Source: Incurvaria masculella (taxonomy: Eukaryota > Arthropoda > Insecta > Lepidoptera > Incurvariidae). From it: a DNA stretch of 64,000 nt. Of the stretch, positions 27,608 through 60,540 are shown in pieces. Numbering within the stretch: position 1 is the stretch's first letter; each line of letters starts with the position of its first letter. Under the pieces are notes generated by a model. The model saw only the letters and a list, made by a program, of their open reading frames with translations, was not told the DNA's origin and did not search any database. The translations under genes were made by a program, and so were the position numbers. The stretch covers positions 12,033,001-12,097,000 of the forward strand of contig OX335660.1 of NCBI GenBank assembly GCA_946894095.1, written 5' to 3'.

Positions 27608-27725
27608 CTACGGCACGGGCTCCTCGTCTGTACCTTCCTCCGAATCGTACACGGGCGCTCCGTTCTTCATCTGAATGACGGACTTCTTGCGTTGTCTGTG
27701 CTCCTTCAGATCTTGGTCGATGCTT
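27608..27725 (-). CDS. fusion gene last exon with stop
   Basis: 118 nt; acceptor TTCACAG|A. It encodes [20 protein letters not shown] and ends [12 protein letters not shown] then TAG at 27610-27608. The basic-then-acidic tail is not part of the TtcA core. Confidence 0.88.
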
Positions 27726-30700
27726 CTGTGAATTAAACGTGGCGCAGATGAGTACCTATGCTGTAAAGCTCCCTTAGGCCACCATATGCAAGTAGTTGTT
27801 CCTGGATTCGAAAAAAATTTGAACCGGATTCATACAGAGATAAAAGGAAAACAATATTTCCAGAAAAAAAACAGACAATGGAAACTGTATAGATGTAGGT
27901 TACACTTTTTTCTACTCTGGTAAAAAACTATTGCACTTGCATATGATCCAGGATTCCATTAACACCATCACGTGTGCCTTATTGGCTCCTAAGAACAGAA
28001 TATACAGAGGCGTACAGAACGAGAGGCGGCCATTGTTGTGTATATCTTATTTTTGCTAGGACCTGACACCTACAAAGTTGTTTTGTTTTTTCATGCAATC
28101 TGACATGGATGACTAATACCACACGACTGCATTATGATATTAGCCAATACACCACATTCCCGAAGGAATTTATGTGCCATGTCAAGACCTTCCCTTTATG
28201 AGCACAGATACATTGAACTGAATGGAAAACAGGGATAATTTTTCATATTTTCATCCGATGCAATCCGAGGAGAAGAGGACCTACAGTTTTAAATAGATTC
28301 CGAACCATGGAGCAGCTCGCATTCGTGACGAAATCCATTTATCCAACTCAGAAAGAGAAAGAAAGTGGTGCATGATTGAGGCGAGGATTTCAAACCAGAC
28401 CTCTGGCTACTATAATATAAAGAGATAACCCGAACCAAGCGTCGCAAGGACCTTAAAGCAATGCACTGCTCCAGTGGCCACAAAACACTGTGAAACACTT
28501 GCACATTAGGTTTTAATACTAGAAGTTTTGTCATAAACTACTACAGTGAACTGATCACATAGTTAAATATCCCTTTAAATGCTACCACCTACAGAAAATA
28601 TAGTATAATGGTTTGAAAGCAGCCTTACAATAAAATAAGAATAAGATTCTCATATGAGATCACTCACTTGGCACTGATAAGGGGGTGCAGCGCGCTCTTG
28701 AGGCTGGTGAACAGGCACGGGTAGAGACGCTCGTGGGAGGCAAGGATGTCACGCGCCACGCTGCTGGGCTCCGAGCGCGTGCGGCCGCACTGGCTTGTCA
28801 GCGGCTCGGCGGTCACGCGTCCGCACGGCTCTGACACGGAGCGGTCCCGCAATAGGTTCGACTTCCTGCAATGTATGCTTAGTGTTAATTTCATCTTGGG
28901 GATAAGTAAGTACTTATTGGAGGTTATTTCACAGGCATAATTACCTTCTAGTTTGAAATTTCTAAGAACTTACATTTTTGTCTTCAGAATCACACCCTGG
29001 AATGAAAGCAGTTGATTCTGACTCAACCTATTTTATGTGTTCAATAAAACTCAGTTTTGTATACGCATTCTTGAATCTCACTTCTGTCAATGAGTCTCTT
29101 TGTGAGACGTCAATAGAAAAAAGTAGGCAATATAGTTAGACAGCTTCTGACGCGAGAACTTCTCTTGTTCGCTTCCTGAGTAGCACCGCCCCCCTTGTAA
29201 CATTTTGTCTTGCCAACTTAACGTCGCCTAGCACCTCTCAAAATTTGCCTCAACACTTGGATTACTACATTGTTAACCATATTTCGATACAGAAGAGGAG
29301 GTTGTCACTCACCCGGCATCGCAGCAGCACTCGTCCGTCGGCGGGCTCAGTTCGCGTCCTGCACGGAACTCTGGCAGCCGCCTGACGTCCGCAAACGCAC
29401 GCAGTTCACTCTCGCGCACGTACACGAACGGACGCACGATGCGCAGGTTATGCTCTCTGCGAAGGGAAAAGCATGCATGACAAACAGACAAACATTGGCC
29501 TCGGTGTTCGACACGATTGATTTCTTTAGATCTTATTTTGAACATTTTTATAAATTAAATTATTATTGATATATTTTGACTGTTGAAACAGTCACGGCAC
29601 ACACACAAATGTATTTCTCAAATACTGTATGATTTTTTAAACAAACATGTATTTTTAAGCATATTAGATAGCAACATGTCATCATCGAAGCCACTTGCTA
29701 TAAGCCCGCATTAATATTAAACGAAATCAATGAGTAGGATTATGTCCTGAGTGCTTGGATGTGTGCTGTGATGAGTGCTTGGCCGTCTCCACTCTCCTCG
29801 CCCCGGACGGTGCCCTGCATCTACATCGCCAATATCTCCGTCGCAAAGCTTCACCGCCAATATCTGCATCGCCAATATCTCCGTCGCCAGCGATGAAGCT
29901 GCGGCCGGATCGCAGATCCATCGCCACTATATGTACGTGGGAGTGTAAATGCGTATGGTGAGGCGGGATATATTTTAACATAACCTATCCAAACCCAACA
30001 TAACATAACCTAACCTAACCCAACATAACCTAACCTAACCTTACCCAACACAACTTAACTTAACCTAACCTTACCCAACTTAACTTACATATCCCCACAC
30101 CACACCTACTTTGGTGACGCATCTGCCTCTCCAGTTTTTGTCTGACCGCCAGTTTGGCCGCAGATGCCTCGCTGGCGATGGAGATATTGGCGATGCAGAT
30201 ATTGGCGAGGCAGATGGTGGCGATGCATATATTGGCGATGGACATATGGAGTCGTACCTGACGTGGTAGTGCGCGCGCGTGGTGCGCAGCGCACCGCCGT
30301 GGAAGGCGGCCGCGAGGAAGGCGCGCGCGGCGCGGTCGAGGTGCTGCGCGAGCGCCGCCACGCCGTAGCCATGCGCCGCCGCCGCCGCGTACACGCGCCG
30401 CCGCACGCCGTGCCGCGCCCAGCGGTGCGCGCCCCGCTCGCGGCGCCCGCGCGCGCCGCTCTCTGCGGGACGGGGGGGTGAAGTGAGATCATAGTAGGGA
30501 TAGATTGCTAGTGTCACACAAGTTTTAAATAGGAATATTAAAAGTCCACAGAAGGCGTTGCAATGGGGAAGAAAACTCAAAGCTTAAAGACTAGCTGCGG
30601 TACCCGGTTCCGCTCGGGTCAATATTGTGTTGGATTGATTTCGGTCTGAATTATTTCCTGGATTAAAAGTAACCCACCAAAAGGCTGGTCCAGGACTAAG

Positions 30701-33700
30701 TATCCGTCTACCAAATTTTATCAAAATCGTTTGAACCGATATGGCAAGATTAATTGATAAACATCGACATATTCCCATTTAGAGCTTCGTAAACATTTGG
30801 GAGCGAATTTTAAAAGCATGTGCCGCCAAACCCTTACTGCACTGGCACTGCTACATAGAAATTGATACAAAACCAACAAAGGCGGGATTAACCCTACCAC
30901 CTTCCTTACTTTAACAAAGCTTGATGAGGAATACGAACCACAGCCACCTTCAACATAGAAAACGGTAACCCATCCGCAATCTGACTGCGCCTAGAGTTGC
31001 TATACGTTGATAAAATACGCAAATAAATCGGGCGAGTGGTTCGAAGTTATCGCTCTACATGATATCGTGGAACTTTCTGTAGGCCTTTTCAACACCTACA
31101 ATTTTCAAGTACATAGTTTTCATTTTACTCTTCAGGTTTGTATTAAATATTTAAAAATTACATACGCAATCCTTGCTCGTTGATCGCTCCTTATATTAAT
31201 GAAAACCGTATCAAAAAGTCCGTTGCGTGGCTTAGAAGCAGTAAACGAAGAAATAAAGGCAGATAGTGATTACCGCCCCAAGCCGCCGCCTTTCGGTTTG
31301 TATGACAGCTACATCTTAACGTAAGCGGAACTGAATTATATCTAGCCTATCCTGGGTCCCGTGTATTTGCATATACGTGTAGTAAGTCTCATCGAATTCG
31401 GATGATCGGTTTGAGAGTTATGGAGGAACATACATACATACATACAGAACTGATTTCTGAAAATAATCAAGTATCTTAGAAAACAAAGCAACTTACTCCA
31501 TGAACACCCCTTACAGATTTATTACTAGTATAGAGTATAGATGACAAATGAGGTACCTCACCGTAAAAACGTCAAAACTGTCATTCCTGTAAAGTTTGAT
31601 TAATGCGTTTTTGAATGAAAGATGTACTTCATGATGCAGTTATAAGGCTTAGAGGAAAAGACGAGCTTTTGATTATCTTCAAACGAATTGAAATGTCATT
31701 GCCAAGCACAAAAGATGAAACGACATATTATAGGTTATGTTTTTGTTTATATTTTCTTACCCACGACTTTTTTTGATTAGCATGATTAAGAACAGTTTAT
31801 TTTCGGAATAACATGGAGAAAATTTAGTCATTTCAATTACATAGATTAAGTAAACATTTTTTTTATTTTGTATGGTATCTGATAGCTGTGACAGATATTT
31901 AAAGTGAGCTGGCTTAGACGCCACCTGTCGTGATAAATAAGTAGTTTTCTTCCCCATTCACATTTCAGTATACATTCATCACAAACCATTTAATATCAAA
32001 AATATTTTTCTTATTACAATGATTGCTTAATTTATAGTTAAAATTAAAATGTTTCATCACGCCGACCTAGACAAAATTTGTAATTGAGCTTAGTTTAATG
32101 ATGGTGGAACTAGTTCTGGCAGTGACGGGAGATGGCGCTGGTTAGAAATGTCAAAGTAGGTACCAGCGAAAATTAGAAGTTTTAAGCGAGTTTTATACGT
32201 TTTATGACATTAGCAGTCTTTCCTTTGTCTATGGTGAGATCCATTTTTTCTTATATGTTTTACTAGCCGAGGTACCCGGCTCCGCTCGAGTCAATGTCGT
32301 TTTAGATGATGTCGGGTTGAATTATTTTCTGGATAATACCGATATGAGTTCCCCATACAAACTATCATTCCCTATTTCACCCCCTTCGAGTTTGTATTTC
32401 GCCACAAAAGGTAGCCTATGTCATTGAACTTCTCCAAGGTCTAAACTCTCTCCATATCGAAATTCATTAAAATTAGTTCAGAGGTTCAGGCGTGAAAACG
32501 CAAGAGACAGACAGATTTACTTTCGCATTTATTATATAAATATGGATGTGACTATGTTACTGGATATTGATGGCTAATACCACACCCACTGTCATACTAC
32601 AAGAAAATCCCGAAAGTGCCAGCCCAGGACCTTCCCTGTATTAGCATGGGCGGTAGAGGACTACTACCTAGTAGAGGAAGGGAACCTATAGTTTTAGTCG
32701 TGCATGAACAAGGCAAGGATAAAACCCTTTACCTCTGGCATGGAAATCAAGTCCGCGCGCCTCTGAGCTACGAGCCGCTATATAAGCATAAACTACAGAT
32801 GGTTTAACATGACGCCAGATATGATTTTAGCTTTTAATGACAAATATCATATAAACTTACGGTCGTCATCAGTCTTATCCTGGTATATCAACTTGACTCT
32901 GAGGTTCCGGCAGTAGGCCATCAAGTGCAGCGGGTCGATGTCTGACTCAGGCCCGTTGACGAATATTGCACCTATGACAGAAATCAGTCATTTTCAGGCA
33001 GTTACCACAGATTTCACATAATTTTTAGGGTTACGTACCCAAAGGGTGAAAACGGAACCCTATTCTAGTATCCTAGTCTGTCCGTCCGTCCGTCCGTCTG
33101 TCACAGGGCTGTATCTCATGAACCGTAATAGGTAGGCAGCTGAAATTTTCACAGAGTGTGTATTTATTTTGCCGCTGTAACAACAAATAGATAAAATAAA
33201 AAAAATATAAGAATTTAAGGATGGTCCCATACAAAAAACGTGATTTTTTTGTGTTAAATCTTGTACGATGGTACGGAACCATTCGTGTGTGAGCCCGACT
33301 CGCACTTGGTCGGTTTTTTACATCAGTTAAGATTTCCATTAAATTGATGCGTTGGACGCATCGAAAGTTTATTTTCAGCCAAAATATCCATAATAACACT
33401 CTTGTGCAGAATATGCAAGGATACAGTCTAAAAACCGGTTTGTTTGTCTGAACTAGCTTTTTGTGAGGTATTTGAAAAGTTGTAACATAGAAAACCTCTA
33501 AGATTTTTAGGTTAACAAATAAAAAAAAAACATTTTTCGCAGAGGAAGATCGACTAGCGATGCTGTAGCTTTATAAACAAATTAAAACAGTCATAACTTC
33601 TAAGTGACCTTTTAAAATTCATAATCGGTTTTTTTCTTACTTTAGTAAAAAGGATTCAAGTTTGTCATGTGAATAGTATCGAAATAAACATATGTAGAAA

Positions 33701-36700
33701 TAATTACAGTTGGTGTATGTCAAGGGCCCATATTAGGTCCCTTGATTTTTAATATACATGTTAATGAAGATCAAGTTGTATCTTGGACAATAAAGCATTA
33801 ATTAGGTAGTACAATTTGTCTTGATTAATAAAGCGATGATAGTCTCTTATAATGAAGACACTACAATTATGATTTGCGTACAATTTATAATTCAAACAAT
33901 ACTTGCATTGATGGTCATTGTGGGTAACAATAAGATATTAGGGCACATGTGGCGTGCCCCTTACATGTCACACCCCGAAAAACAAGCCCAACCTTAGGGT
34001 GCTACTGGACTTATGTCATCGATGGTATATTCTAATGACAAACTCTATCGAAACACAGCAAACATACCCATTGTGAAGTGAACACCCCTGCCCCTCGCAT
34101 AAAGCTGGTAATGGTGGAGCGTATGCAGCAGCGCTAGAGAGTCGCGGCCGCCGGACAGACACACCAGAACCTTGTCTTGATCCCGGATCATGTCGTACTC
34201 GTGGATTGCCTGCCAGGATGGACAACAATATTATTGTGGTTCATTATCATTTGGATTACTTTCTTTTTGTGGGCCTATGTGGGGCACTCGTGCAATGATT
34301 ATCGTAAGAAGCCTGGAACTAATCAACTTATTCTCAGTACGAAAAAGTACACATTGTTTAGATCAACTTTTTTTTGGACAGGTTAGGTAATTTAGGCTAG
34401 TGAGGTTGGGTTAGATTAAAAGATAAAATAGATATCGTAAAATAAATCGAGGTGCATGACCTTTTAACTAAATATGTGTATGTAGAAAGAACAAATGAAT
34501 GCTTCAACATCGAGTGTGCGAATATTGCGCTCCACTATTCGAACATGAATGACACGTTTGAGTAATGGCGCTTCAACACCGTGCTCGAGTGTGTAAAGGT
34601 ACAAAAATGGGACCATCTTTTTTCTATTCATTTGGTTAGTAGCTTAAGCCATGTTTGTCTATGTCAGCCCCACAGTAACTATTTGTGTTTACGGATCGCT
34701 GCGCAGGACAAGAGAATTGTTAAAAGTTTTCGTTTGTGAACTCTTCATTCTGTGGTTGGCTTAGAGCTTCATGGATCGTGAAGAATAAATGCAGTTTGTC
34801 TGTGCACAGAACCTTCAACAGTTTGTTTCTAGTGACTTGAATCCGGACACAATCCAACAGTACGTGGAGCTGATCCCCTGCTTGCCGACAAGCAGATCAG
34901 TTAGGCGCCTTAACTATTCGCATAAATTTCAGTGTCTTATTTAGTGTTGTATGTCCGGATTGCAGTCGGAGGCCTGTCACTATGTTAGATCTTGGCAATT
35001 TAGAATTGACAAGCCATGGTGTTTTAAGTGGTTCACATTGAATTATTTTATACCATATTCTTTTCTCTACCGACCTTCTATCTTAATGAAAGAGCATTAG
35101 AAGCATAGAGTGATGCATGAGCTTTTGAAATTTGACTAAATTTCTAAATGTAGAGCAAGGATCACAATTGATTTCAATACTTTCTGATTACATAACTGCT
35201 TGCTTAGCTAACCTGTCTCCAATTTTATTTCCAAGTACTCCAACATGAGATGGAATTGTTTATTGTTTATTCAACATCCATAGGTAGCATACTGCACTCG
35301 GATTTGTCATATTTTATCATGAGCCAGTTCTGCATTCACGGCGGAAAAGAACTGGCAAGAAATTTCGCTGAATTTTATCCAACGTCCACTTAGTTTAGGT
35401 TTACAAGTTTTTTTGCCATTGCTTACAGAAATACTTATTGGTTATTGGTACCCGTTTGTGTGATCCATTGTAAATAGTTCGATTTTTTTTAATGGAACAT
35501 TTGAGCATGAATATCGTGCTAGAATATTCGAACATGAATGACGACTTGTAACAGAGGTTTAACAATGTGCTCGTGTGCAAAGCCCCAACCTCGACGGTGC
35601 CTTTCCAGACGGCCCGCGTCGGCGGTTGCCAGTCGCCGTCGGCGGCGGGCTCCGGCGCGGACGAGTCGCCGCTGCTCGCGGAGCCGCACCGCTCGCCCTC
35701 CCCTTCGGAGCCCGAGCCGGACTCCTCGCGCTGGTAGAACTCCGGCTTCCTGCTGACCATAGATGAATGATAGTAGGGACAGATTGCTAAGAGCATGCAA
35801 GTGTTGAATAGGGATAATAAAAGTCCACAGGTGGCGTTGCACGTCACATTTCAGAATGCATTAAATAGAAGCCAATGAAAATAAATGACTTTTATTTACA
35901 ATGCCATTACTTCATTTATAGATAAAATTTAATGTTTTCATCACGCCTACCTAGGCAAAATTTGGAATCAAGCTTAGTTTAATGATGGTGTAATGAGTTC
36001 TGGCAGTGACGGAAGATGGCGCTGGTTAGTCATAGTATCAGCGAAAATAAGGAGTTTTCGGCGAATTTTTTTAAATTGTATTACGTTAGCTTTCTATTCA
36101 TTCTCTTTAATCTATGGAGCCGCTTATGACGTAATGGAGCCACTGCTCAAAATTCTATTTGTCTGCGGACCGACAGTTATCAATAGATCTCACCGTTTGA
36201 CATTTCTAGTACGCATAGGGTATAGCTCGATTAGACAAATAAATTATTTAATTTAATTTCGATTAGTTTAAGTTGAGGCGATCAAGGCACGCAAACATAA
36301 GGGGGACATTTCTCAAATACAGTACGTTCTTTTTTTTTTAAATGGGTACATTCAAACACATTTGATCGCCACATGTCATAGTTGTCACCATACTGGACCA
36401 CGCTTGCTATAAACCAGCAACAATAAAAAAAAAATCCGTAACCTCAACTAAAAATCAATATTAATACAAATTATAGGGTATTTTTGAAAATACACATAAA
36501 TAGATTTCACTAGGTGTCAACTGACCTGATTTCGTTAAACGGTGGGCTCAGGTCCTGACTAGTTTCCTGTGCGTCTACGTATCGCAAGCAGGGTGCGAGC
36601 TCCGAATGTACGGGCGAGCGACCACACCCCGCGGAGCCTGGCTGGCACAGACTCGACCTGTAGAGTGCAAAGCCTGTTCAAATAGAGACCGATAGATGGC

Positions 36701-39700
36701 GTTACTTGTAATGTTACGCTTCGATGATTCCCACAATTGTCCACATTTTTATTAGGAAGGATATATGTAATTCTACCCGTTCATGAGAAGTATGTACTGA
36801 TTTCATTAACATAAGAATTGTAGTTTTATTCCCTACGTACCTTTTTGCTATTAACACTACAACACAAACCCTATTGCCACAGATTACTCATCTATTGTTA
36901 TTGCTCCAGAATATATGGTTCTAGTATTCATCGGAAAATTTGGTTAACGAAAGTACAGGGGCATTCATATTATTGCTATTAGGTCGTCCTACAATGTACA
37001 TTACATTATTCTTAAATTTCCGTTTACTGCTTGAAATAAATATGGGATCCAAAGCGCAAAGCATGAATGAAGTGAATGAGTAATGGTCAATTGCATAATA
37101 GGAACCTGCTGTCTTTGGAGTCAATATCTTCAGCTAACTGGAAGTTTACTCTTCCAATATCAGTCGTATTGCCCCCGCAGCAGGGTCGATATTGCCTCGA
37201 ATAGTCCCCCGAGCAAACGGGAACACCCTCTATTATATCGGGTACCTCAGTCTTGTCATACCTTTGGTGCGACTTTAGCTTGCTCTGTGCCCATCTACCC
37301 TTGTGTGTGGGGTCGGAGCATGTGCGCCATTTCACTGAAAATAGAAAAAGTCACGTGACACCGGGCTCATGAAAAGCGTTTGTAAATGGACTAGTTAAAT
37401 TCCACCGAGCTTTTCCACAGTCGATTTTAGCATGTATTTTCCATCCAGTGTGGTCAGTCGGAGTTCTCACCTAAATTGACGTTTACAGAACTTGGAAGTT
37501 ACGAAAAACGTCAAACTCCGTAAACAAGTTTTTTCTTGATATTCTGTGGTTTACTTCTTCAAGCTGTCAAAGTCATACTCGGACTTCCGATTTGTATGGA
37601 AATGCGAAGTCGGCATAAACGGCAACGTCATCGTATTCATGGCGACGATACGTAACCTTTCAAATCGAACTTGGACTCGCAAATGTTAGTTCGCTTAACG
37701 CCCACTGCGCGCGCTCTTCAATTTCTCCATACATTTGAAAACGCCAGTCGATCGGTTTGGCATAAACGCCAATTTAGGTGCCATCTGGGACAACGGGCTC
37801 TGATTAATGGGAAATTTATGTAAGTAAGCTCCTGACATAGCACCTACATAGATTCCATGAGGTGTGTTGGAAAAATACTTCCCGCTAGTCATCCCCTTAA
37901 AGCAATCTTTTTGTCCCCAAGGCCCCCTTGGCTACGTTTAAATGGTTGACGACCCTATATATATGTGCGCTGAAAATGTTGTCTTTATTTCTCTACAATG
38001 TATGCCTCCTATCTTCTCCGTCTACCCCTGGCCCTCATTCCATCATCCCTTTACCAATCATATAATACCAAGAAATATTTAGAAAAGTTGATAAAAATAA
38101 TTAAGGCCCTGGTACTAGCCAAATCGCAAAGTTAGACGAGGCACCCCAAGTTAACTAACTAAGCCCCGATTGCACGAAGAGACAGCTGAGTTAATCAGTG
38201 TTCAAACACGTCACTTTTAGTGAACCGCTTGGAGTTCCGTCCATAGAGTCCATAGAAAGTGACCTGTTTAATCATATGTTGACGTTGATTTTTATTTTTT
38301 GTTCTTTCGTGCACTCGGCCCTGAGTCTGACGATTAGAAGTGTCATTCTTACAATATATGACAAGGAATCTAGGAATCAACTTATTTTCGTTAATGTATG
38401 TTTTCTTTTTCTATACAAAATACATTGCGGAAACGGTGTCCATTTCCGAACTTTTTTGACTAAATATAGAAATCTAAAAGCAAATGGAATTATTTGTTTA
38501 TGTATATATCCTGTTTTTGCTTATATCTAGAAATCTTATTACTTTTAGATTTATAATGTAAAAAAATTACTTTATTATTATTATGATTATTTAAATAAAT
38601 GATGGAATCAAACAATATTTACAATCCATTATCAGTCTGGAGTTCTATTTGAACTTGTTTAGGTGTTTCACTGCATATTATTACATTTGATAAAGTTGCA
38701 TTTGTATGGCGCGAGTAGTTGGCTAGTCCTAACGCCTTAAGTGGGAAGAAATATATATTTCATTAACACATTGTATAAAAACCATCTTTAGTCTACAAAA
38801 TGATTAAAAGATATAAATTTTATTAACATTACATTTTCTGGGCAAACAGCCCCGCAGGTGCCCGCGACCCCGAAGTGGGTCGCGACCCACTGGTTGGGAA
38901 ACACTGCCCTAACGTGATTTAGAATGCTGGTAGGTAGCCTATACATAAGTTATAGGAATAATCAAGCCCTGCATAGATTCAAACCGCATAAAAATCGGAA
39001 AAGCTGTTCCCAAGATACAAACTAACCTACAATCGTACACAAAGGCGAACAGATGATTAGAGCGGAAATACCAATATTTTTGTTATGAAATATTGTTTTC
39101 GATTAAGTTGAATTTAAAACTGTCATTTGAGGGATGTAGTTTAATTTTGAGGGAATGATTTTCTCATAGATCCACAGAAAAATGAAGTGTGGAAAAATAC
39201 GTTAAATCCTTTATTTACCGTGCTATTAGTTGAGGCGCTCGAATGTGAAAAATCAATATTGCGCATTAACAATGGAATATTCTAATCCACACTAAAGATG
39301 TAAACATTGGCACAGGTCACACGTGATCTTTGCAGAATGACATAAATGTAGACACATACGTTTTCGTACATGCATGCATTACTTATACACAACTATAAGA
39401 TATTTGTTAAACAGATGAATATTGAATTGTCATCATGTAAACTGTACCAAAAAATTATGAAAGACTTCTCGAAAAAATATAGCTGTTTGCAATATTGGCC
39501 ATAAAATAACGAATGTGATGTTAGCATAAACCTGTTTACTTGACTGTAAATAAAGGCAATTGTGATCCAAGGTTGTAGCTCATTATTAAAGTTAGTTGAT
39601 CATATACTGAAGTAAGTGGCTTGTAATTAATAACGAAATTAAGTACCTACTTAGGTTTACTACGAAACATTAAGACCCTAAAATTTCTCGAAGAATCTAG

Positions 39701-42700
39701 GTTTGCCAAGATCGACCCTAAGCTCACAATATGAAGAGAGCTGCAAAGTCATCACTGGAATCACCTACCTATACGGGGTAGAGAGAGGCATATCTAGAAC
39801 GGGACTTCTCAGCATCCTAGTTTCCGCAGGTTAGCTGTAGAGGCTTGAAGCGAGTTGATACGTTATCGGTAAGGAGTCTAGCCACCCATAGACCCAAGCT
39901 TGATTGAAACCCTCTACTGCCAATAGCCCCCATACATGTTCGGTGAATTCATTGAAAGCTGAGTTCAACGTTATAGGGGAGACATGTGTCGATTAGAAGA
40001 TAAATGATTAATTCCTTGGCTGAAATAATGTCTGGGTTGCTCATTTGGGTTGATCACAGTTTTGATACTGCTTTAACAAATAGCAAACATAATTTCTACT
40101 CATTTAAAAAATCTTGTTACAATGCTTCAATGTAGATGTCACTGTTTACGTAAAATAAATGTGTTACTTCTGCCTATGCTTTAATGGCATTATTAATTCA
40201 AATTAGTATAAACTCACCAAAGTCCTGATAGGAATCTGTTTCCGGGAAGCTCATATTGATTCCACTGTCCTGCGAACTGATCGAGGGGTTCTGACACCAA
40301 TTTTTCTTATTGCAATACTGTCTGCATATGGCGTCCGAACAACACACTTCATCGTCGGAGAGTTTGTGCGTACTCAGAGATTTGGGCATCGTCGGCGAAT
40401 CTAATGAAGTCGACACAACCTGAATTATCGTGTCTGGTGTGGAGGTTTCGCTCGAATTGAACGACAAACTGTTGGGACCCGATGCTTCGTGCAGGGGAGT
40501 GCCTTGTCTCGACTTGGAAGGAGTCTCTAAAGGCGACCTCGAACAACAAACACTCTCATCTTCTTCTATGCTCCTCTGCGAAGGTAAAATCGGACTTGTA
40601 GGGCACTTTTTCAAAGATCCCGAGCTTTCACAAGCGGTTTTAAGGTTCAACCCCAATTCGGGGCCCGATCCGAGCCTTCTTCTTATCCCCTGAGGTGGAG
40701 AGCCCCTTCGGGAGCCCATTGAGCACATATTCAGCATATCCGGGGACATCATCTCATCGACTTGATTTACCATCTCTCGTATCTCGTGCTTCACCTCAGA
40801 TGCCATTTCTCTCGACATCCCCATTAAGTACTCCGCCACGTCTATCACGGAGACAGAATTGTTATCTAAATTGCTACTATTCGAGATCATGCTCGCGTTG
40901 GACTGTTCTAACGTTTCAGAATTCTCCAAAATATCATCAACTTGAGAAATGACCTCCCTTATTTCCGATTTCAGTTCTGTTGCGATTTCCTTAGTCATCT
41001 CCTTAACATATGCGTGAAGATCCTCAGAAGTGTGAGATGCAATGGAGACCGTTGGGGAGGCGCGACCTGCCACACTGCAGTCTGAAATTGAAGCACTGGT
41101 CTGTGTGTTGTAGGGGAAAACCCTCGTGGGAGAAAGCATAGGATCGTCCAGTGACTGCAAGTCCGTTTGACTTCCGCAGTTGCACAAGCTGTTTTTCGTC
41201 TCGGTTGCGGAAATGTCTGAAAGGCCTAGGTTCAGTCTCGTCTTTGGACTCAAAGCGGGTGAGGGCACGTCAGATCCCAAGCTGTAGCATCGCGACCTCA
41301 TCATAACAGGATTCGACCTAAGGTGAATGGGCATGATTGATTCACCCACAGCGAACTGGACCGGCGGCGTCTTCGTCAAGCCACTTGTATATTCGCCATC
41401 CTTTTCCATCAAACTGGTTTCTCTAGAGAAGAATTTTGTTTTGTGCTTTAGCCTGATAAGAGCGCAGTCATCTATCGCCGACAGACTGTAGTGTCTCGGG
41501 GATGAGCCGAGTACCGGTGAAGACCCATTGGATCCTCTTTGGATGAGGCTTCTCCTTGCTCCCGTGTATCCGGAAGGGTCGAATGGCACTATGTGCTTGA
41601 CGTTTCCGGACTTCCCAAGCAACAGGTCGTGAGCTTCCTTGGGTAACATGAACCACCTTAGGTAGTCCATACGAGGGTTGAAGGTGACCTCCTGGTCGGC
41701 CACTGAGCCTTTCATGGCTAGCTTTCTAGCTCTGTTAAATAGGTTTCTAGCTGTTTGCAGGCATTCCGTGTAGGTCTGTGGGAATATGCCCGGCCCTGCA
41801 AATATAACATTATAAATCCTTGTTCAAAATTAATCAACGGCGATGGCATATTCAAGCAAAGTGTTGGATTGTTCGCAACCGCGTTTCGATTTGTCCAACT
41901 AATGTATATCGGAGGTTTACCTGAAATTCTTCTCTCATGCGATGTCATTTTTCCATCGTGATACCTAATGGAAAACAGTGATTTTCTATCCAGGAACACA
42001 GCATTGGAACGGTGTCGCCACTGCCCGTTCTCAGGATTCACAACGTACTGGGGCAGGATCTTCCATCCTTCCGTGGCGACCATCTTGAGGGCTTCGAGGA
42101 CGAATGCAAGTTCACTCTCCGACATGAAGAAAGGAAGGGAGATCCGAGAGAACCCAGGCCTGAGGTGCTCGTTTGGTGTAAACGGCTTGCTGTCTGCTGA
42201 CTTTTTGGACTGCGGCATCGCCTTATTTCTGGCAACAAACAAAAAAACGATGACACATTTTCCGCCAATTGAACCGATAGAATTTGTTTAATCTCACGAA
42301 AATACTTCAGCAAAGTAAACTACAAACTCATTTCATGACAAGCCAGTGACTGCTAATCACATGTTGGTTGACAATAATCACACACTAAAGTTGTCTTTAA
42401 CGATAAGTCTGCCCTTGTCTAATTTTTTTTTATATAACTTGACATAGATGGCTAATATGTGGCTAATCCCAAACCTACCGTCATATTAGGCCAAAAGACT
42501 ATATGGGAACTACGTGTTATCACACAACACGATTTTGTAACTGTATTGTCCTGTATTTTGTACACGAAGTCATTAATTTATCTCAGAAAGAGACATGACT
42601 CACAGTTCGTCGTTAAGCAGCTTCCCGTACTCGCGCAGCAGCTGCGCGGCGACGGCTAGCACATCCTGCCCGTAACTTAGGTTGCCGCTGAGCACACCCT

Positions 42701-43244
42701 ACTAGCCGTCGAGAAGTGCAACACTCACAGGTCTTCGTTGAGCAGCTTCTCGTACTCGCGCAGCAGCTGCGCGTCGATGCCGAGCACGTCCTGCCCGCAG
42801 ATGAGGGTTCCGCTGAGCACACCCTACTAGCCGTGGAGAAGTGTAACACTCACAGGTCTTCGTTAAGCAGCTTCTCGTACTCGCGCAGCAGCTGCGCGTC
42901 GATGCCGAGCACGTCCTGCCCGCAGATGAGGGTTCCGCTGAGCACACCCTAATAGCCGTGGAGAAGTGTAACACTCACAGGTCTTCGTTAAGCAGCTTCT
43001 CGTACTCGCGCAGCAGCTGCGCGTCGATGCCGAGCACGTCCTGCCCGTAGCTGAGGTTGCCGCTGAGCCCGCCGCGCGCCTGCACGCCGAACACGTCGTT
43101 GAGCACCGCGCACACGAAGTTGTGGTGCAGGAAGGTGCCCCGCGGGTGCTTCACGAGCAGCGAGAAGATGGGCAGCCGCCGCACCGTCGGCGACTCGCTG
43201 CCCAGCAGTATCAGCTCAGGGATGTTCTTGATATGGGCGATCAC
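27608..43244 (-). CDS. class-V aminotransferase / TtcA-type PP-loop ATPase fusion (partial, 5' end missing)
   Basis: Twelve exons join in phase: 43244-42979, 42228-41921, 41795-40218, 37334-37106, 36657-36526, 35749-35590, 34209-34068, 32971-32861, 30462-30258, 29456-29313, 28865-28668, 27725-27608. The total is 3591 nt, 1196 residues plus TAG. Residues 1-235 resemble the C-terminal lobe of class-V aminotransferases of the cysteine-desulfurase type ([47 protein letters not shown]). About 235-890 is Ser/Pro/acidic linker with two related helices. About 892-1160 is a TtcA-like PP-loop ATPase: [15 protein letters not shown] (SGGRDS at 910-915), [50 protein letters not shown]. TtcA enzymes thiolate tRNA cytosine 32; desulfurases supply the sulfur. 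Several expected cysteines appear replaced. The N-terminal lobe with the PLP lysine is not in the window. Catalysis is therefore uncertain; domain identity is fairly sure. Confidence 0.85.
28090..28435 (-). mobile_element. SINE copy in fusion-gene intron
   Basis: Minus-strand copy of the SINE: ATGGATGACTAATACCACAC at the tail side, GGACCTACAGTTTTAAATAG (the complement of the body) and CAGAAAGAGAAAGAAA, ending in a decayed tRNA-like head. Confidence 0.7.
28668..28865 (-). CDS. fusion gene exon k
   Basis: 198 nt; acceptor TTGCAG|G, donor CCAA|GTGAGT. It encodes [20 protein letters not shown], then [20 protein letters not shown], matching the family's closing helix (LFxNLxxAxxPL). A roughly 30-residue polar insert precedes that helix. 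Confidence 0.9.
29313..29456 (-). CDS. fusion gene exon j
   Basis: 144 nt; acceptor TCGCAG|A, donor CCGG|GTGAGT. It encodes [20 protein letters not shown] and [10 protein letters not shown], as in TtcA (RPLxYxxE..T..FA). Where the family has ENCPxC this protein has an unusual [10 protein letters not shown], so a cysteine cluster remains but not in CxxC spacing. Confidence 0.9.
29770..29930 (+). repeat. minisatellite of CATCGCCAATAT units
   Basis: Four or five copies of a 12-18-bp unit around CATCGCCAATATCTCCGTCG. The same unit occurs inverted at 30165-30250, so the pair can form a stem enclosing 250 bp. Confidence 0.8.
30000..30085. repeat. degenerate CCTAA (telomere-like) run
   Basis: Repeated AACCTAACCTAACC and AACTTAACTTAACC with errors. 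It resembles interstitial copies of the insect telomere repeat (TTAGG)n read on the other strand, and sits between the two inverted minisatellite arms. Confidence 0.75.
30165..30250 (-). repeat. inverted arm of the CGCCAATAT minisatellite
   Basis: Contains GGCGATGGAGATATTGGCGA and variants, four or five units. It begins about 10 bp inside the intron after the donor of fusion-gene exon i. Confidence 0.85.
30258..30462 (-). CDS. fusion gene exon i (GC-rich)
   Basis: 205 nt, very GC-rich; acceptor CCCGCAG|AG, donor GTCAG|GTACGA. It encodes [20 protein letters not shown], then [20 protein letters not shown] and [14 protein letters not shown]. The order matches TtcA CxxC-R-x-RRG..Y and GHHxDDxxETFL; here the CxxC pair reads H..A and the second Asp reads Arg. 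A minisatellite starts about 10 bp past the donor. Confidence 0.92.
30588..30775 (+). mobile_element. RTE-like LINE 3'-region fragment
   Basis: TAGCTGCGGTACCCGGTTCC and a following AATTATTTCCTGGATTA match 32266-32545. Non-coding, typical of dispersed RTE-derived repeats in Lepidoptera. Confidence 0.5.
32266..32545 (+). mobile_element. RTE-like LINE 3'-region fragment, longer copy
   Basis: Starts ACTAGCCGAGGTACCCGGCT and ends CGCATTTATTATATAAATAT after AGACAGACAG. A related inverted copy lies at about 23085-23310 (GCGAAAATAAGAGCGGATGA). No protein is left. Confidence 0.55.
32545..32800 (-). mobile_element. SINE copy in fusion-gene intron
   Basis: Minus-strand copy: GATGGCTAATACCACACCCA, AGGACCTTCCCTGTATTAGC, and a tRNA-like head ending GCGCGCCTCTGAGCTACGAG. 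Confidence 0.7.
32861..32971 (-). CDS. fusion gene exon h
   Basis: 111 nt; acceptor TCATAG|GT, donor GACC|GTAAGT. It encodes [20 protein letters not shown] and [13 protein letters not shown], corresponding to the second beta strand and helix of TtcA (VDPGS...YDPxxL). Confidence 0.92.
33022..33320 (-). repeat. GGTTCCGTACC interspersed repeat, inverted full copy
   Basis: Reads TTTTTAGGGTTACGTACCCA at its left and GAGCCCGACTCGCACTTGGT at its right, the complement of the 24397 copy. Contains (CCGT)n. Confidence 0.8.
34068..34209 (-). CDS. fusion gene exon g: PP-loop
   Basis: 142 nt; acceptor TGGCAG|GCA, donor ATGG|GTATGT. It encodes [20 protein letters not shown] and [26 protein letters not shown] is the ATP-pyrophosphatase P-loop (SGGxDS), complete here. 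Confidence 0.95.
34700..35257 (-). pseudogene. LINE RNase H to C-terminus remnant
   Basis: Minus-strand frames give [20 protein letters not shown] (35257-35195), then after decay [20 protein letters not shown] and [20 protein letters not shown], then DQLHVLLDC. This is the RNase H and zinc-knuckle end of an I/jockey-type LINE, broken by stops. Same family as 5758-5880. Confidence 0.75.
35258..35470 (-). mobile_element. LINE 3' UTR-type repeat
   Basis: TGTTTATTCAACATCCATAG and ATTTGTCATATTTTATCATG with CAAATACTTATTGGTTATTG-like text recur inverted at 53145-53345. It is a non-coding retroposon tail. Confidence 0.6.
35590..35749 (-). CDS. fusion gene exon f, acidic Ser-rich, NAGNAG acceptor
   Basis: 160 nt with the distal acceptor; the tandem acceptor GTCAGCAG allows a start at 35752 or 35749, adding or omitting one serine. 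It encodes [20 protein letters not shown] and ends VWKGTVE|GTTGGG, leading straight into the PP-loop domain. Confidence 0.85.
36526..36657 (-). CDS. fusion gene exon e (predicted)
   Basis: 132 nt; acceptor CTACAG|G, donor ATCAG|GTCAGT. It encodes [20 protein letters not shown] and [19 protein letters not shown], a low-complexity linker. Support comes from phase agreement on both sides and good splice sites. Confidence 0.75.
37106..37334 (-). CDS. fusion gene exon d (predicted)
   Basis: 229 nt; acceptor TTTTCAG|TG, donor AGCAG|GTTCCT (weak). It encodes [20 protein letters not shown] then [17 protein letters not shown]. No family match, but it opens and closes in exactly the phases needed by exons c and e and brings the whole reading frame through. 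Confidence 0.7.
37385..37890 (+). mobile_element. SINE copy interrupted by a fold-back MITE
   Basis: SINE body GTATTTTCCATCCAGT stops at about 37450; SINE tail text (CCTGACATAGCACCTACATA, GAGGTGTGTTGG) resumes at about 37815. The CAGAGCCC-family MITE lies between. Confidence 0.6.
37451..37803. mobile_element. fold-back MITE (CAGAGCCC family) nested in a SINE
   Basis: TCTCACCTAAATTGACGTTT on the left and AACGCCAATTTAGGTGCCAT with CAACGGGCTCTG on the right. The interior matches the 23745 copy: CTTCTTCAAGCTGTCAAAG, TTAGTTCGCTTAACGCCCAC. Confidence 0.75.
37900..40200. other. fusion-gene intron, no exon recognised
   Basis: AT-rich; includes a CCGCGACCCCGAAGTGGGTC palindromic patch near 38862-38890. 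The frame 38198-38530 (+) is hydrophobic but has no recognisable motif. Confidence 0.45.
40218..41795 (-). CDS. fusion gene exon c: large linker exon
   Basis: 1578 nt, 525 codons; acceptor TTTGCAG|GG, donor TTTG|GTGAGT. The first 60 residues finish the aminotransferase part ([20 protein letters not shown]). The rest is Ser/Thr/Pro-rich and probably disordered. It holds two related amphipathic helices, [20 protein letters not shown] (41010-40927 region) and [20 protein letters not shown] (40833-40750 region), 59 residues apart: an internal duplication. Confidence 0.93.
41921..42228 (-). CDS. fusion gene exon b
   Basis: 308 nt; acceptor TGCCAG|AAA, donor TCAG|GTAAAC. It encodes [20 protein letters not shown] then [20 protein letters not shown] and NGQWRHR, typical of the C-terminal lobe of this aminotransferase subfamily. 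Joined to exon a it reads [13 protein letters not shown] with no Met start needed. Confidence 0.9.
42430..42600 (-). mobile_element. partial SINE copy
   Basis: ACTTGACATAGATGGCTAAT, CCTACCGTCATATTAGGCCA and the TCTCAGAAAGAGACATGACT block, in the intron just beyond the duplicated exon tails. Confidence 0.55.
42601..42978 (-). pseudogene. three extra tandem copies of the exon a tail and its donor
   Basis: Units starting at 42601, 42726 and 42851 repeat, with a 125-bp period, the last 90 or so bases of exon a ([20 protein letters not shown]) plus the donor and about 30 bp of intron. The true exon is the fourth unit (42976). No copy has its own acceptor. Reading past the true donor hits TGA at once, so only the proximal donor gives a continued frame. 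Confidence 0.9.
42979..43244 (-). CDS. fusion gene exon a: end of aminotransferase fold
   Basis: 266 nt, phase 0 to 2; acceptor GACAG|GTG, donor CCT|GTGAGT. It encodes [36 protein letters not shown] and then [15 protein letters not shown]. In the family as I remember it, ARGG is followed by a Cys-x-Cys-AGPY segment; here those cysteines are absent. Whether exons upstream exist beyond the window or were missed is unresolved. Confidence 0.88.
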
Positions 43245-43339
43245 CTGTCTGGAAGGGACATTTATTGTTTCGATGTTGTTCACCTACATTCACAACGAGG
43301 GGTCAGTCACTTAGGGAATTGGTGTACAATTGTTTGATA

Positions 43340-47449: not shown

Positions 47450-47840
47450 TAGTTCAATTTGCTCTTCTGTGGTCGCCTGGAACGCAGTATCCTCTATTTA
47501 GCTGCTATTTGCCGCGGCAGCGAGTGCCGCGTCTTTTGTCGTTTGAACATCTTTTGTTCGACGTTGGCGACGTTGTCGTCGTTGTTCGTCGTTGTTGATG
47601 TCGAAAACGGAACCCTATGCGCGCTCGTCGATTGTATCTCGTTCACTCGCGTCAGTCGCCCGGTCGCGCCGCGCCGAAGTGTCTTATAATATTTGGACGC
47701 TCGTCCGCTCCGCTGTAGCGCCACAGAGCAGCGCTGTGCAACAATCTAATAATGTAGATTTGTATTCGAATGAATCGAATAACGGGAACAATCGAATAAT
47801 TCGATTGTTTTTATTCGCAATCGCCTATCGCTAGTCTATG

Positions 47841-50800
47841 ACCAGTGTTTCCAATGATATAACGAAAATAAATTTTGACATGACAGACAGGTAGATCAGG
47901 TCGGGGCGTTTATATTGAGTGGTCGCTTGATGGGCCTACGATCAGTGTTTCCCATGATATAACGAAAACAAATTTTGACATGACAGACAGGTAGATCAGA
48001 TCGGGGCGTTTATATTGAGTGGTCGCTTGATGGGTCTACGATCAGTGTTTCCCATGATATAACGAAAACCAATTTTGACATGACAGACAGGTAGATCAGG
48101 TCGGGGCGTTTATTTTGAGTGGTCGCATGATGGGTCTAAGACCAGTGTTTCTCATGATATAAAAAAAACAATTTTGACATGACAGACAGGTAGATTAGGT
48201 CGGGGCGTTTATTTTAAGTGGTCGCATGATGGGTCTACGACCAGTGTTTCCCATGATATAACGAAAACAAATTTTGACATGACAGACAGGTAGATCAGAT
48301 CGGGGCGTTTATATTGAGTGGTCGCTTGATGGGTTTACGATCAGTGTTTCCCATGATATAACGAAAACAAATTTTGACATGACAAACAGGTAGATCTGGT
48401 CGGGGCGTTTATTTTGAGTGGTCGAATGATGGGTCTAAGACCAGTGTTTCCCATGATATAACAAAAAACAATTTTGACATGACAAACAGGTAGATTAGGT
48501 CGGGGCGTTTATTTTGAGTGGTCGCATGATGGGTCTACGACCAGTGTTTCCCATGATATAACGAAAACAAATTTTGACATGACAGACAGGTAGATCAGAT
48601 CGGGGCGTTTATATTGAGTGGTAGCTTGATGGGTCTACGACCAGTGTTTTTCATGATATAACGAAAACAAATTTTGACATGACAAACAGGTAGATCTGGT
48701 CGGGGCGTTTATTTTGAGTGGTCGCATGATGGGTCTAAGACCAGTGTTTCCCATGATATAACAAAAAACAATTTTGACATGACAGACAGGTAGATTAGGT
48801 CGAGGCGTTTATATTGAGTCGTCGCTTGATGGGTCTACGACCAGTGTTTTTCATGATATAACGAAAACAAATTTTGACATGACAGACGGGTAGATCAGGT
48901 CGGGACGTTTAATTTGAGTGGTCGCATCATGGGTCTACAACCAGTGTTTCCCATGATATAACGAAAACAAATTTTGACATGACAGACAGGTAGATCAGGT
49001 CGGGGCGTTTATTTTGAGTGGTCGCATGATGGGTCTAAGACCAGTGTTTCCCATGATATAACGAAAACAAATTTTGACATGACAGACGGGTAGATCAGGT
49101 CGGGACGTTTACTTTGAGTGGTCGCATCATGGGTCTACGACCAGTGTTTCCCAAGATATAACGAAAACTAATTTTGACATCACAGACAGGTAGATCAGGT
49201 CGGGGCGTTTATTTTGAGTGGTCGCATGATGGGTCTACTACCAGTATTTCCCATGATATAACGAAAAAAAATTTTGACATGACAGGAAGTTAGATCAGGT
49301 CGGGGCGTTTATTTTGAGTGGTCGCATGATGGGTCTGCGACCAGTGTTTCCCATTATATATCGAAAACAAATTTAGACATGACAGACAGGTAGATCAGGT
49401 CGGGGCGTTTATTTTGAGTGGTCGCATGATGGGTCTGCGACCAGTGTTTCCCATTATATATCGAAAACAAATTTAGACATGACAGACAGGTAGATCAGGT
49501 CGGGGCGTTTATTTTGAGTGGTCGCATGATGGGTCTACGACCAGTGTTTCCCAAGATATAACGAAAACAAATTTAGACATGACAGACAGGTAGATCAGGT
49601 CGGGACGTTTACTTTGAGTGGTCGCATCATGGGTCTACGACCAGTGTTTCCCAAGATATAACGAAAACTAATTTTGACATGACAGGAAGTTCGATCAGGT
49701 CGGGGCGTTTATTTTGAGTGGTCGCATGATGGGTCTGCGACCAGTGTTTCCCATGATATAACGAAACTAATTTTGACATGACAGACAGGTAGATCAGGTC
49801 GGGGCGTTTATTTTGAGTGGTCGCATGATGGGTCTACGACCAGTGTTTCCCAAGATATAACGAAAACAAATTTAGACATGACAGACACGTAGATCAGGTC
49901 GGGACGTTTACTTTGAGTGGTCGCATCATGGGTCTACGACCAGTGTTTCCCAAGATATAACGAAAACTAATTTTGACATGACAGGAAGTTCGATCAGGTC
50001 GGGGCGTTTATTTTGAGTGGTCGCATGATGGGTCTACGACCAGTGTTTCCCATGATATAACGAAAACTAATTTTGACATGACAGACAGGTAGACCAGGTC
50101 GGGGCGTTTATTTTGAGTGGTCGCATGATGGGTCTACGACCAGTGTTTCCCATGATATAACGAAAACAAATTTTGACATGACAGGAAGTAGATCAGGTCG
50201 GGGTGGTTATTTTGAGTGGTCGCATGATGGGTCTACGACCAGTGTTTCCCAAGATATAACGAAAACAAATTTAGACATGACAGGAACGCAAATCAGGTCG
50301 AGGCGTTTACTAAGAGTGGTCGCATGATGGGTCTAGGACCATTGTTTCCCATGATATAAAGAAAACAAATTTTGACATGACAGGAAGGTAGATCAGGTCG
50401 GGGCGTTTATTTTGAGTGGTCGCATGATGGGTCTACGACCAGTGTTTTTCATGATATAACGAAAACAAATTTTGACATGACAGACAGGTAGATCAGGTCC
50501 GGGCGTTTATTTTGAGTGGTCGCATGATGGGTCTACGACTAGTGTTTCCCATGATATAACGAAAACAAATTTTGACATGACAGACAGGTAGATCAGGTCC
50601 GGGCGTTTATTTTGAGTGGTCGCATGATAGGTCTACGACCAGTGTTTCCCATTATATGTCGAAAACAAATTTTGACATGACAGACAGGTAGATCAGGTCG
50701 GGGCGTTTATTTTGAGTGGTCGCATGATGGGTCTACTACCAGTGTTTCCCAAGATATAACGAAAACTAATTTTGACATGACAGACAGGTAGATCAGGTCG

Positions 50801-51290
50801 GGGCGTTTATTTTGAGTGGTCGCTGGGTCTACTACCAGTGTTTCCCAAGCTATAACGAAAACAAATTTTGACATGACAGACAGGTAGATCAGGTCCGGGC
50901 GTTTATTTTGAGTGGTCGCATGATGGGTCTACGACCAGTGTTTCCCATTATATGTCGAAAACAAATTTTGACATGACAGGAAGTTAGACCAGGTCGGGGC
51001 GTTTATTTTGAGTGGTAGCATGATGGTCTACGACCAGTGTTTCCCAAGCTATAACGAAAACAAATTTTGACATGACAGGAAGTTAGATCAGGTCGGGGCG
51101 TTTATTTTGAGTGGTCGCATGATGGGTCTACGACCAGTGTTTTCCATGATATAACGAAAACAAATTTTGACATGACAGGGAAGGTAAATCAGGTCGGAGC
51201 GTTTATTTTGAGTGGTCGCATGATGGGTCTACGACAAATGTTTCCCCAGATATAGCGAAAACATATTTGGTCATGACATGACATGTACAA
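47841..51290. repeat. satellite array, about 34 copies of a 100-bp monomer
   Basis: A monomer containing CCAGTGTTTCCCATGATATA, AATTTTGACATGACAGACAG and CGGGGCGTTTATTTTGAGTG repeats every 100 bp with occasional 1-6-bp indels. Monomer variants recur every third unit: at 47941-48840 the ATCAGAT, ATC(T/A)GGT and ATTAGGT types alternate, and the 49551-50150 block repeats a different trio. It is non-coding, with stops in all frames. Not CRISPR: no unique spacers. Confidence 0.97.
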
Positions 51291-60261: not shown

Positions 60262-60540
60262 TTAACAAAAAAAATAACCGACTTCAAAGAAAAAGCACTA
60301 AAAAGTAAAAAATAATTTCCATTTTTGTAGTTACGATTTCTGTTATTTTTTGAGTCGGTGTCAGCCAAGGTTAGGTTAGGTTAGGTTAGGTTAGGTTAGC
60401 TTAGGTTAGGTCCTCTTGATTGGCGCAGCGCGTTCCCGGCTGACGCCGACTCAAAAAATAACAGAAATCGTAACTACAAAAATGGAAATTATTTTTTACT
60501 TTTTAGTGCTTTTTCTTGGAAGTCGGTTATTTTTTTTGTT
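60262..60540. repeat. near-perfect hairpin with a TTAGG array in the loop
   Basis: Arms of about 97 bp (60270-60367 and 60438-60536) differ at only a few positions: TAACCGACTTCAAAGAAAAA against its complement, through GTAGTTACGATTTCTGTTAT to GAGTCGGTGTCAGCC. The 70-bp loop holds GGTTAGGTTAGGTTAGGTTA at 60369-60413. Confidence 0.92.

Follow-up and report, generated by a model that had tools for sequence, protein, structure and literature searches.

A desulfurase-TtcA fusion gene of the moth Incurvaria masculella probably encodes a recycled, non-catalytic protein

Cysteine desulfurases are found joined to other sulfur-related domains, as in the desulfurase-MOSC protein ABA3 and in the CD-rhodanese fusion of Pseudorhodoferax, whose bifunctionality is demonstrated in the accessible part of its report (PMC8931425). 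Both of these are active, and their partner domains differ from the one described here, which is of the type found in TtcA, the tRNA-cytidine(32) 2-sulfurtransferase. TtcA requires its Fe-S cysteines according to the available portion of PMC5372745, and its modification, 2-thiocytidine (s2C), is listed for bacteria and archaea and not for eukaryotes in the available portions of PMC7694415 and of the table in PMC5372739. Within a 64,000-nucleotide stretch of the genome of Incurvaria masculella (assembly GCA_946894095.1, contig OX335660.1, positions 12,033,001 to 12,097,000; hereafter the window, whose coordinates we use unless stated otherwise), we characterized a gene that, by sequence comparison, represents in Lepidoptera a eukaryotic fusion between a SufS-like desulfurase and a TtcA-type tRNA thiolase. 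It may resemble SufS-type (group II) desulfurases in fold, as judged from the model of an intact-type relative, and lacks their catalytic cysteine, their stacking histidine and a match to Aminotran_5; with TtcA it shares the PP-loop and lacks the first CxxC and the tail motif. We propose that the protein of moths and butterflies has probably taken on a different role, as a neofunctionalised, non-catalytic pseudo-desulfurase/pseudo-thiolase that would serve as a dimeric scaffold or ligand sensor built around a pyridoxal phosphate (PLP) site, and we assign this reading a probability of roughly 0.68.

Starting from splice-consistent open frames of the minus strand, we fixed the exons in the window by tblastn with six insect proteins. 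The resulting gene has 16 exons on the minus strand, of which 11 lie in the window and five upstream on the same contig (C20). Four of the latter, recovered from 50 kb fetched upstream, encode the N-terminal lobe (C20 12101054-12117997), and exon 1 with the ATG was found by a whole-genome search (C20:12170698-12170868). The gene spans 110,261 bp, including an intron of 24.8 kb between exons 5 and 6. All exons have GT/AG edges, and the joined model encodes 1484 residues with a single stop, at the end, in the order SufS-like cysteine desulfurase, extension, insect-specific linker and TtcA-type PP-loop domain. Over its whole length the product is 65% identical to the Plodia protein P0001 and 63% to the Bombyx protein P0025; identity to Periplaneta P0057 is 42% from residue 28 onward and 49% in the N-terminal region. 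Because it aligns end to end with independent lepidopteran proteins, a chance origin is excluded, and the single frame across all 16 exons together with the same order in homologues favors one transcript.

These results bear out the original prediction, made from the letters of the window alone, that one minus-strand gene encodes both domains, and the N-terminal lobe that it sought further 5' is present there. Its exon structure had to be revised: homology gives 11 coding exons in the window instead of twelve, the first of them starts at 43248 and not at 43244, since the frame with the upstream exon requires the acceptor TTCCAG/ACAG, and the in-window product has 1154 residues instead of 1196. 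A candidate exon at 27801-27756 was rejected because it introduces stops into the frame; leaving it out yields an open frame that ends in the conserved ...EEPVP tail. No second copy was found in the genome, where the P0001 query (15 matches) and the intact-type P0057 query (8 matches) both led to this locus only.

The active sites were surveyed in an alignment of 180 insect proteins (51 named Lepidoptera, 45 Hymenoptera, 30 Coleoptera, 26 hemimetabolan proteins from seven orders and 28 unnamed). We scored seven sites in Periplaneta numbering, namely H162, H274, K275, C424, the PP-loop aspartate and the two cysteines of the first CxxC, and counted truncated rows as not intact. When the sequences are aligned to Bacillus subtilis SufS, H162 falls on H121 and C424 on C361; C422, which was considered as the catalytic cysteine, was rejected since this alignment places the nucleophile at C424. 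PDB titles name H121A, H123A, C361A and C364A among the mutants studied, and we take E. coli H123 and B. subtilis H121 to be the PLP-stacking histidine. All seven sites were intact in 25 of the 26 hemimetabolan rows (the exception, P0068, is truncated at the sites), in 21/45 Hymenoptera and 10/28 unnamed rows, and in none of the 30 Coleoptera or 51 Lepidoptera. Mayflies, cockroaches and aphids are among the insects that retain both active sites. A tail CxxC or CP was present in 24/26, 7/45, 5/28, 2/30 and 0/51 rows of these groups, respectively.

In the named Lepidoptera, C424 is replaced by Ser (41), Gly (5), Thr (2) or Asn (1), with two gaps, and is thus Cys in 0/49; a cysteine anywhere in the 12-residue catalytic loop occurs in 1/51 rows (P0050, at the last position). 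The replacements at H162 (Thr in 41, gap in 10), H274 (Glu in 42, gap in 9) and C422 (Leu in all 50 rows with a residue) are uniform, and the first CxxC is complete in 0/50. The PLP lysine K275 is kept in 42 rows (gap in 9), D239 in 41 (gap in 10), R419, as aligned to SufS, in 50/51, and R476, which we read as the substrate arginine, in 51/51. The PP-loop itself varies: SGG[RQ]DS is found in 10 of the 50 rows with the segment, the aspartate is not Asp in 24/50 (Glu 12, Ser 10, Ala 2), and LDD has His or Arg for its second D in 40/49. In the I. masculella gene, the PLP Schiff-base lysine is present (NCEKFVGG), the position of the catalytic cysteine (E. coli C364, B. subtilis C361) is Gly, VPERQ stands in place of the EHHSN that holds the stacking histidine (aligned by eye), the PP-loop SGGxDS reads SGGRDS and the first CxxC reads HRWA. 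With neither a first CxxC nor a tail motif, no [4Fe-4S] site is predicted. The suggestion that the gene encodes a self-contained sulfur-transfer enzyme is therefore unsupported for this moth, in which other residues stand in place of the catalytic cysteine, the stacking histidine and the cysteine pair of the first CxxC; it fits the hemimetabolous relatives and nearly all of the 120 listed matches to an oomycete query, which keep these residues. The second suggestion of the same prediction, a derived regulatory protein, fits the moth gene well as far as sequence can tell.

In the other holometabolous groups surveyed, C424 is kept in 45/45 Hymenoptera and 26/30 Coleoptera. The four beetle rows without it (P0082, P0085, P0090 and P0100, from Pyrocoelia, Abscondita, Photinus and Lamprigera, which we take to be fireflies) all have Asn and group in the tree with two unnamed rows, of which one has Asn and the other Ser. 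In this clade the desulfurase nucleophile appears to have been lost a second time, independently. Beetles and most Hymenoptera are partly decayed.

Profile searches gave a divided picture of the two domains. ATP_bind_3 matched the full moth product (5.3e-12), whereas Aminotran_5 matched neither the in-window product (E<=0.1) nor the full product (E<=0.05), so that of the two profile matches proposed as a check only that to ATP_bind_3 was obtained. Aminotran_5 was likewise faint in other Lepidoptera: Plodia scored 0.0021 and Plutella 0.0015, neither reaching the curated cut-off, and Bombyx gave no match. A PDB search with the Plodia protein by itself (E<=0.01) retrieved no desulfurase. A mixed insect profile (44 rows, 33 of them lepidopteran) retrieved SufS chains (5.4e-9 and 2.2e-8) and TtuA (1.6e-7) from the PDB. 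It is by this profile and by alignment to relatives, not by Pfam, that the desulfurase domain of the moth gene is recognized. The Periplaneta protein matches both Pfam domains (Aminotran_5 2.5e-34, ATP_bind_3 4.4e-12), and its top NCBIfam ranks are TtcA (NF007972, 3.6e-56) and SufS (TIGR01979, 3.2e-33), both under the curated cut-offs. NF007972 reaches 2.5e-20 with the Plodia protein, also under its cut-off, and names such as 'tRNA 2-thiocytidine biosynthesis protein TtcA' probably misdescribe the lepidopteran entries that carry them. Best PDB matches to the AlphaFold model of the intact-type hemipteran protein P0174 (mean predicted local distance difference test score, pLDDT, 62.8) are SufS crystal structures. 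The lepidopteran model P0038 has a PP-loop core with pLDDT ~90, low confidence elsewhere (mean 48.9) and no N-lobe; its nearest structures include TtuA, TilS and NcsA. An ATP_bind_3 search of the whole genome gave no match and missed the fusion gene's own exons too, and is hence uninformative on other PP-loop genes.

The distribution of the fusion was assessed with three protein searches, each scoring about 8000 candidates, of which we consider the best 120 of 221 matches (moth open frames), of 2163 (an eight-insect profile) and of 7880 (an oomycete unit). The top 56 of the best 120 of 221 are lepidopteran, 51 by name and five unnamed ones by list position; the other named rows belong, as we assign the orders, to cockroaches, termites, stick insects, an orthopteran, thrips, beetles and Hymenoptera. 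By the same assignment, no name from Diptera or Trichoptera occurs among the best 120 of 221 or the best 120 of 2163, which is not evidence of loss. All of the best 120 of the 7880 oomycete-unit matches carry both Pfam domains (PF00266 and PF01171), and the named ones are presumably stramenopiles: oomycetes, a brown alga, Chrysoparadoxa, Paraphysomonas, Hondaea and Mucochytrium. Of these 120, 118 have an intact first CxxC, 118 an intact tail CxxC and 119 the SufS-aligned cysteine (P0232 is unaligned there), and the extension motif RWFxxPxEA of the family recurs in 55. The survey for the same domain order that had been called for thus located the fusion in ten insect orders and in stramenopiles. 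The moth gene shares this order and, within insects, homology from end to end; it differs from the family in that Lepidoptera have lost the Cys, His and Fe-S residues kept by hemimetabolous insects and nearly all the oomycete-unit matches.

Three oomycete copies (P0179, P0182 and P0183) have a full desulfurase loop with the Fe-S cysteines replaced (LxxT; SxxT or MxxG), an apparent loss of the thiolase half outside insects as well. P0182 and P0183, the Fe-S exceptions, look like members of a second oomycete paralogue with P0179. P0179 also holds two fused units within one predicted protein, and the unnamed P0236 and P0237 combine both halves with further domains (PF00085, PF08534, PF00578 and others) that we take to be thioredoxin-type. 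Bacteria have stand-alone desulfurases of the same subfamily with an RGGCSCAG loop (Actinomycetota, Acidimicrobiia, Myxococcota and others; 42-51% identity), which match mostly query residues ~45-600, that is, the desulfurase and part of the extension. At the best 80 of 587 candidate bacterial loci the desulfurase stood on its own, with no TtcA-like match in up to 3.5 kb of flank, a result that leaves room for bacterial fusions; a test piece of the extension gave no match at these 80 loci either and is a poor probe, the tblastn ranges reaching mostly to about residue 600. Judged from the best matches, the fusion looks eukaryotic. We found no description of it in the literature, with subscription papers largely and bioRxiv preprints wholly outside coverage. 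The remark of the original prediction that no animal enzyme of this build has been characterized agrees with our literature searches, even though proteins of such a build abound in sequence databases.

The linker sets the insect proteins apart. DSGIN occurs in 176 of the 180 insect rows (1/3 in mayflies, 6/8 in Hemiptera) and the motif K[ST]E[ILF]R in 177; in contrast to the insect linker, neither the KxEIR helix nor DSGIN is found in any of the 120 oomycete-unit matches listed. Two linker helices resemble each other, as seen in P0001; they are helical in both models (P0174 and P0038) and amphipathic by eye. DSG-type motifs can serve as phosphodegrons.

A tree of the desulfurase and extension (168 proteins, 561 columns) gives the Lepidoptera a stem branch of 0.671 and a mean crown depth of 0.21; stem and crown are 0.278 and 0.262 in Hymenoptera, 0.171 and 0.332 in Coleoptera, and 0.051 and 0.235 in Hemiptera. 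The long stem and shallow crown point to fast change followed by constraint in Lepidoptera. Hemimetabola have 193 near-invariant desulfurase columns. Lepidoptera keep 106 of these, have changed and then fixed 32, among them H162, H163, H274, C422 and G426, and are variable at the other 55. Pairs of lepidopteran proteins have a mean identity of 0.92 over the C-lobe, 0.88 over the extension, and 0.88 and 0.92 over the two linker helices; over the TtcA tail it is 0.44.

Taken together, we envisage an ancestral form in which a persulfide, made from cysteine by the desulfurase, would pass to the [4Fe-4S] PP-loop domain of the same chain, and this domain would adenylate and thiolate a tRNA cytidine. 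Lepidoptera have lost the catalytic cysteine, the PLP-stacking histidine, the histidine that precedes the PLP lysine, and the first Fe-S CxxC, with variation of the PP-loop motif, and have kept the PLP lysine with its aspartate, R419, R476, the modeled PP-loop core fold and the linker with its helices and DSGIN. The present protein may form a dimer as SufS does and act as a scaffold or sensor through the linker on partners.

Several points weigh against this proposal. The linker is less conserved in Hemimetabola (0.56 in the second helix, 0.35-0.43 in linker stretches), which weakens the case for its importance there. The first half of the PP-loop domain is 0.81-0.85 identical among Lepidoptera, SGGRDS in the moth gene makes ATP binding possible, and a fold search with the lepidopteran model ranks tRNA thiolases first, although this speaks to fold and not to function. 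Survey rows are 90% clusters, isoforms included, and not species, and the tree leaves out the window's gene. The identities, those of Hemimetabola (0.90 in the C-lobe, 0.90 in the TtcA tail) included, are raw values, uncorrected for clade age; what counts is the contrast inside Lepidoptera. Finally, the retained PLP lysine and aspartate would also suit a new PLP reaction.

This last point leads to the alternative that the desulfurase domain has been repurposed as a PLP enzyme that carries out a different reaction, such as the lyase, decarboxylase or transaminase conversion of an amino acid. The four retained residues (K275 42/42, D239 41/41, R419 50/51, R476 51/51) and the 32 of 193 columns that changed and were then fixed are what such an enzyme might leave behind. 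However, no residue was identified to replace the lost acid/base groups, and structural PLP binding would explain the lysine equally, and we regard this alternative as unlikely. That the protein still transfers sulfur by itself, through other cysteines, draws on the intact relatives in other insect orders and stramenopiles and on the Hymenoptera, which keep C424 in 45/45 rows though the tail Fe-S motif is in 7/45 only. It would have to do so with a catalytic loop that is free of Cys in 50/51 named Lepidoptera, with C424 not Cys in 49/49 and C422 Leu in 50/50, and with the His and Fe-S ligands lost alongside C424; as TtcA is reported to require C122, C125 and C222 (PMC5372745, accessible part), we find this improbable.

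It is equally improbable that the PP-loop half retains ATP binding and adenylates a target for which no sulfur is needed, with a structural desulfurase half. SGGRDS in the moth gene, the core pLDDT of ~90, SGG[RQ]DS in 10/50 rows and the identity of 0.81-0.85 in the first half of the domain would be expected in that case, but not an aspartate that is not Asp in 24/50 Lepidoptera or a second D of LDD that is His or Arg in 40/49. Decay under weak selection toward a pseudogene would account for the long stem branch and for the identity of 0.44 in the TtcA tail, yet it is hard to credit given the 1484-residue open frame, identities of 0.92 (C-lobe), 0.88 (extension) and 0.88-0.92 (linker helices) and near-uniform replacements at several sites; by these sequence measures the lepidopteran gene is not a pseudogene. 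That two genes were wrongly joined, as introns of up to tens of kb and weak donors at 37106 and 35590 might suggest, is next to inconceivable, because the same domain order is annotated in many species and because unnamed 'lgn' contigs of 4.9-6.3 kb, too short for such introns and therefore presumably transcripts, encode members of 1498-1550 residues that the tree nests in Lepidoptera (P0004, P0007, P0014 and P0047).

Returning to the non-catalytic, recycled protein, we see about even odds for a wider history in which insects inherited a bifunctional enzyme able to transfer sulfur on its own and dismantled it in steps along parallel lines. The Fe-S thiolase half would have gone first, as in beetles and most Hymenoptera, and the desulfurase nucleophile later, on two or more occasions (Lepidoptera, fireflies), with the insect-specific linker becoming the selected part. 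Under this history, the intact forms would predict that hemimetabolous insects and stramenopiles have in their tRNA an unreported thiolated cytidine, or another thiolated base, that should be missing in moths. Residue-complete fusions in insects, oomycetes and a brown alga make a eukaryotic version of s2C directly testable, and the moth gene offers a natural negative control. The family would also illustrate clearly how an enzyme of two steps becomes a conserved pseudoenzyme, and beetles and wasps may carry living intermediates.

The window holds coding exons 6 to 16, all on the minus strand. Exon 6 (42979..43248; tblastn, acceptor set by the frame with the upstream exon) encodes the desulfurase C-terminal lobe, and in its former catalytic loop a 12-residue stretch replaces RGGCACAGPYAQ. 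The extension starts in exon 7 (41921..42228; LRPGF..., tblastn identity 63-76%, AG/GT edges) and is completed in exon 8 (40218..41795; LRWFML..EA), which, as tblastn and motifs indicate, also encodes most of the insect linker, with both KxEIR helices and SSQDSGIN; exon 8 is 65-70% identical to lepidopteran proteins, and its best segments reach 37-41% against cockroach and beetle. Exon 9 (37106..37334) belongs to the linker, with 46-55% identity to four Lepidoptera and a weak donor, GTTCCT, that leaves its edge uncertain. Exon 10 (35590..35749) leads from the linker to the PP-loop start; it was matched by two of six queries at 27-33% identity (E 0.003) and keeps the frame, with uncertain edges. 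The edges at 37106, 35749 and 35590 are the least certain of the model, the donors being weak and the linker poorly conserved there.

The PP-loop follows in exon 11 (34068..34209; tblastn, ATP_bind_3) and its domain continues in exon 12 (32861..32971; 65-73% identity to Lepidoptera). Exon 13 (30258..30462; tblastn, site survey) covers the region of CxxC and GQHLDD in intact relatives and reads AQHLDR where these have GQHLDD. The PP-loop core ends in exon 14 (29313..29456; 49-66%), exon 15 (28668..28865; 43-61%, segment identity) encodes the tail without the CPAC Fe-S motif, and exon 16 (27608..27725; 67-82% to Lepidoptera) the conserved C-terminus and the stop.

A 125-bp tandem repeat of 3.8 copies overlaps exon 6 on the minus strand (42598..43068; Tandem Repeats Finder, copy comparison). 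Its unit comprises the 3' end of exon 6 and the GTGAGT donor, copied into the following intron, which thereby contains three decoy donors at 125-bp spacing; reading beyond the true exon 6 donor meets a TGA immediately. A satellite array with a 100-bp unit and 34.6 copies (47834-51287) lies inside the intron between exons 5 and 6, and the insect telomere repeat (TTAGG)n occurs at 60371-60410 and 29976-30091, as exact stretches in one intron of the fusion gene and degenerate in another. Downstream of the fusion gene and on the same strand is an exon of a CPSF6-like gene (3748-4107; RSLD_CPSF6 3.9e-25), and a mariner/Mos1-type transposase frame of 350 residues occupies 607-1656 (Transposase_1 1.1e-26, HTH_48 2e-17).

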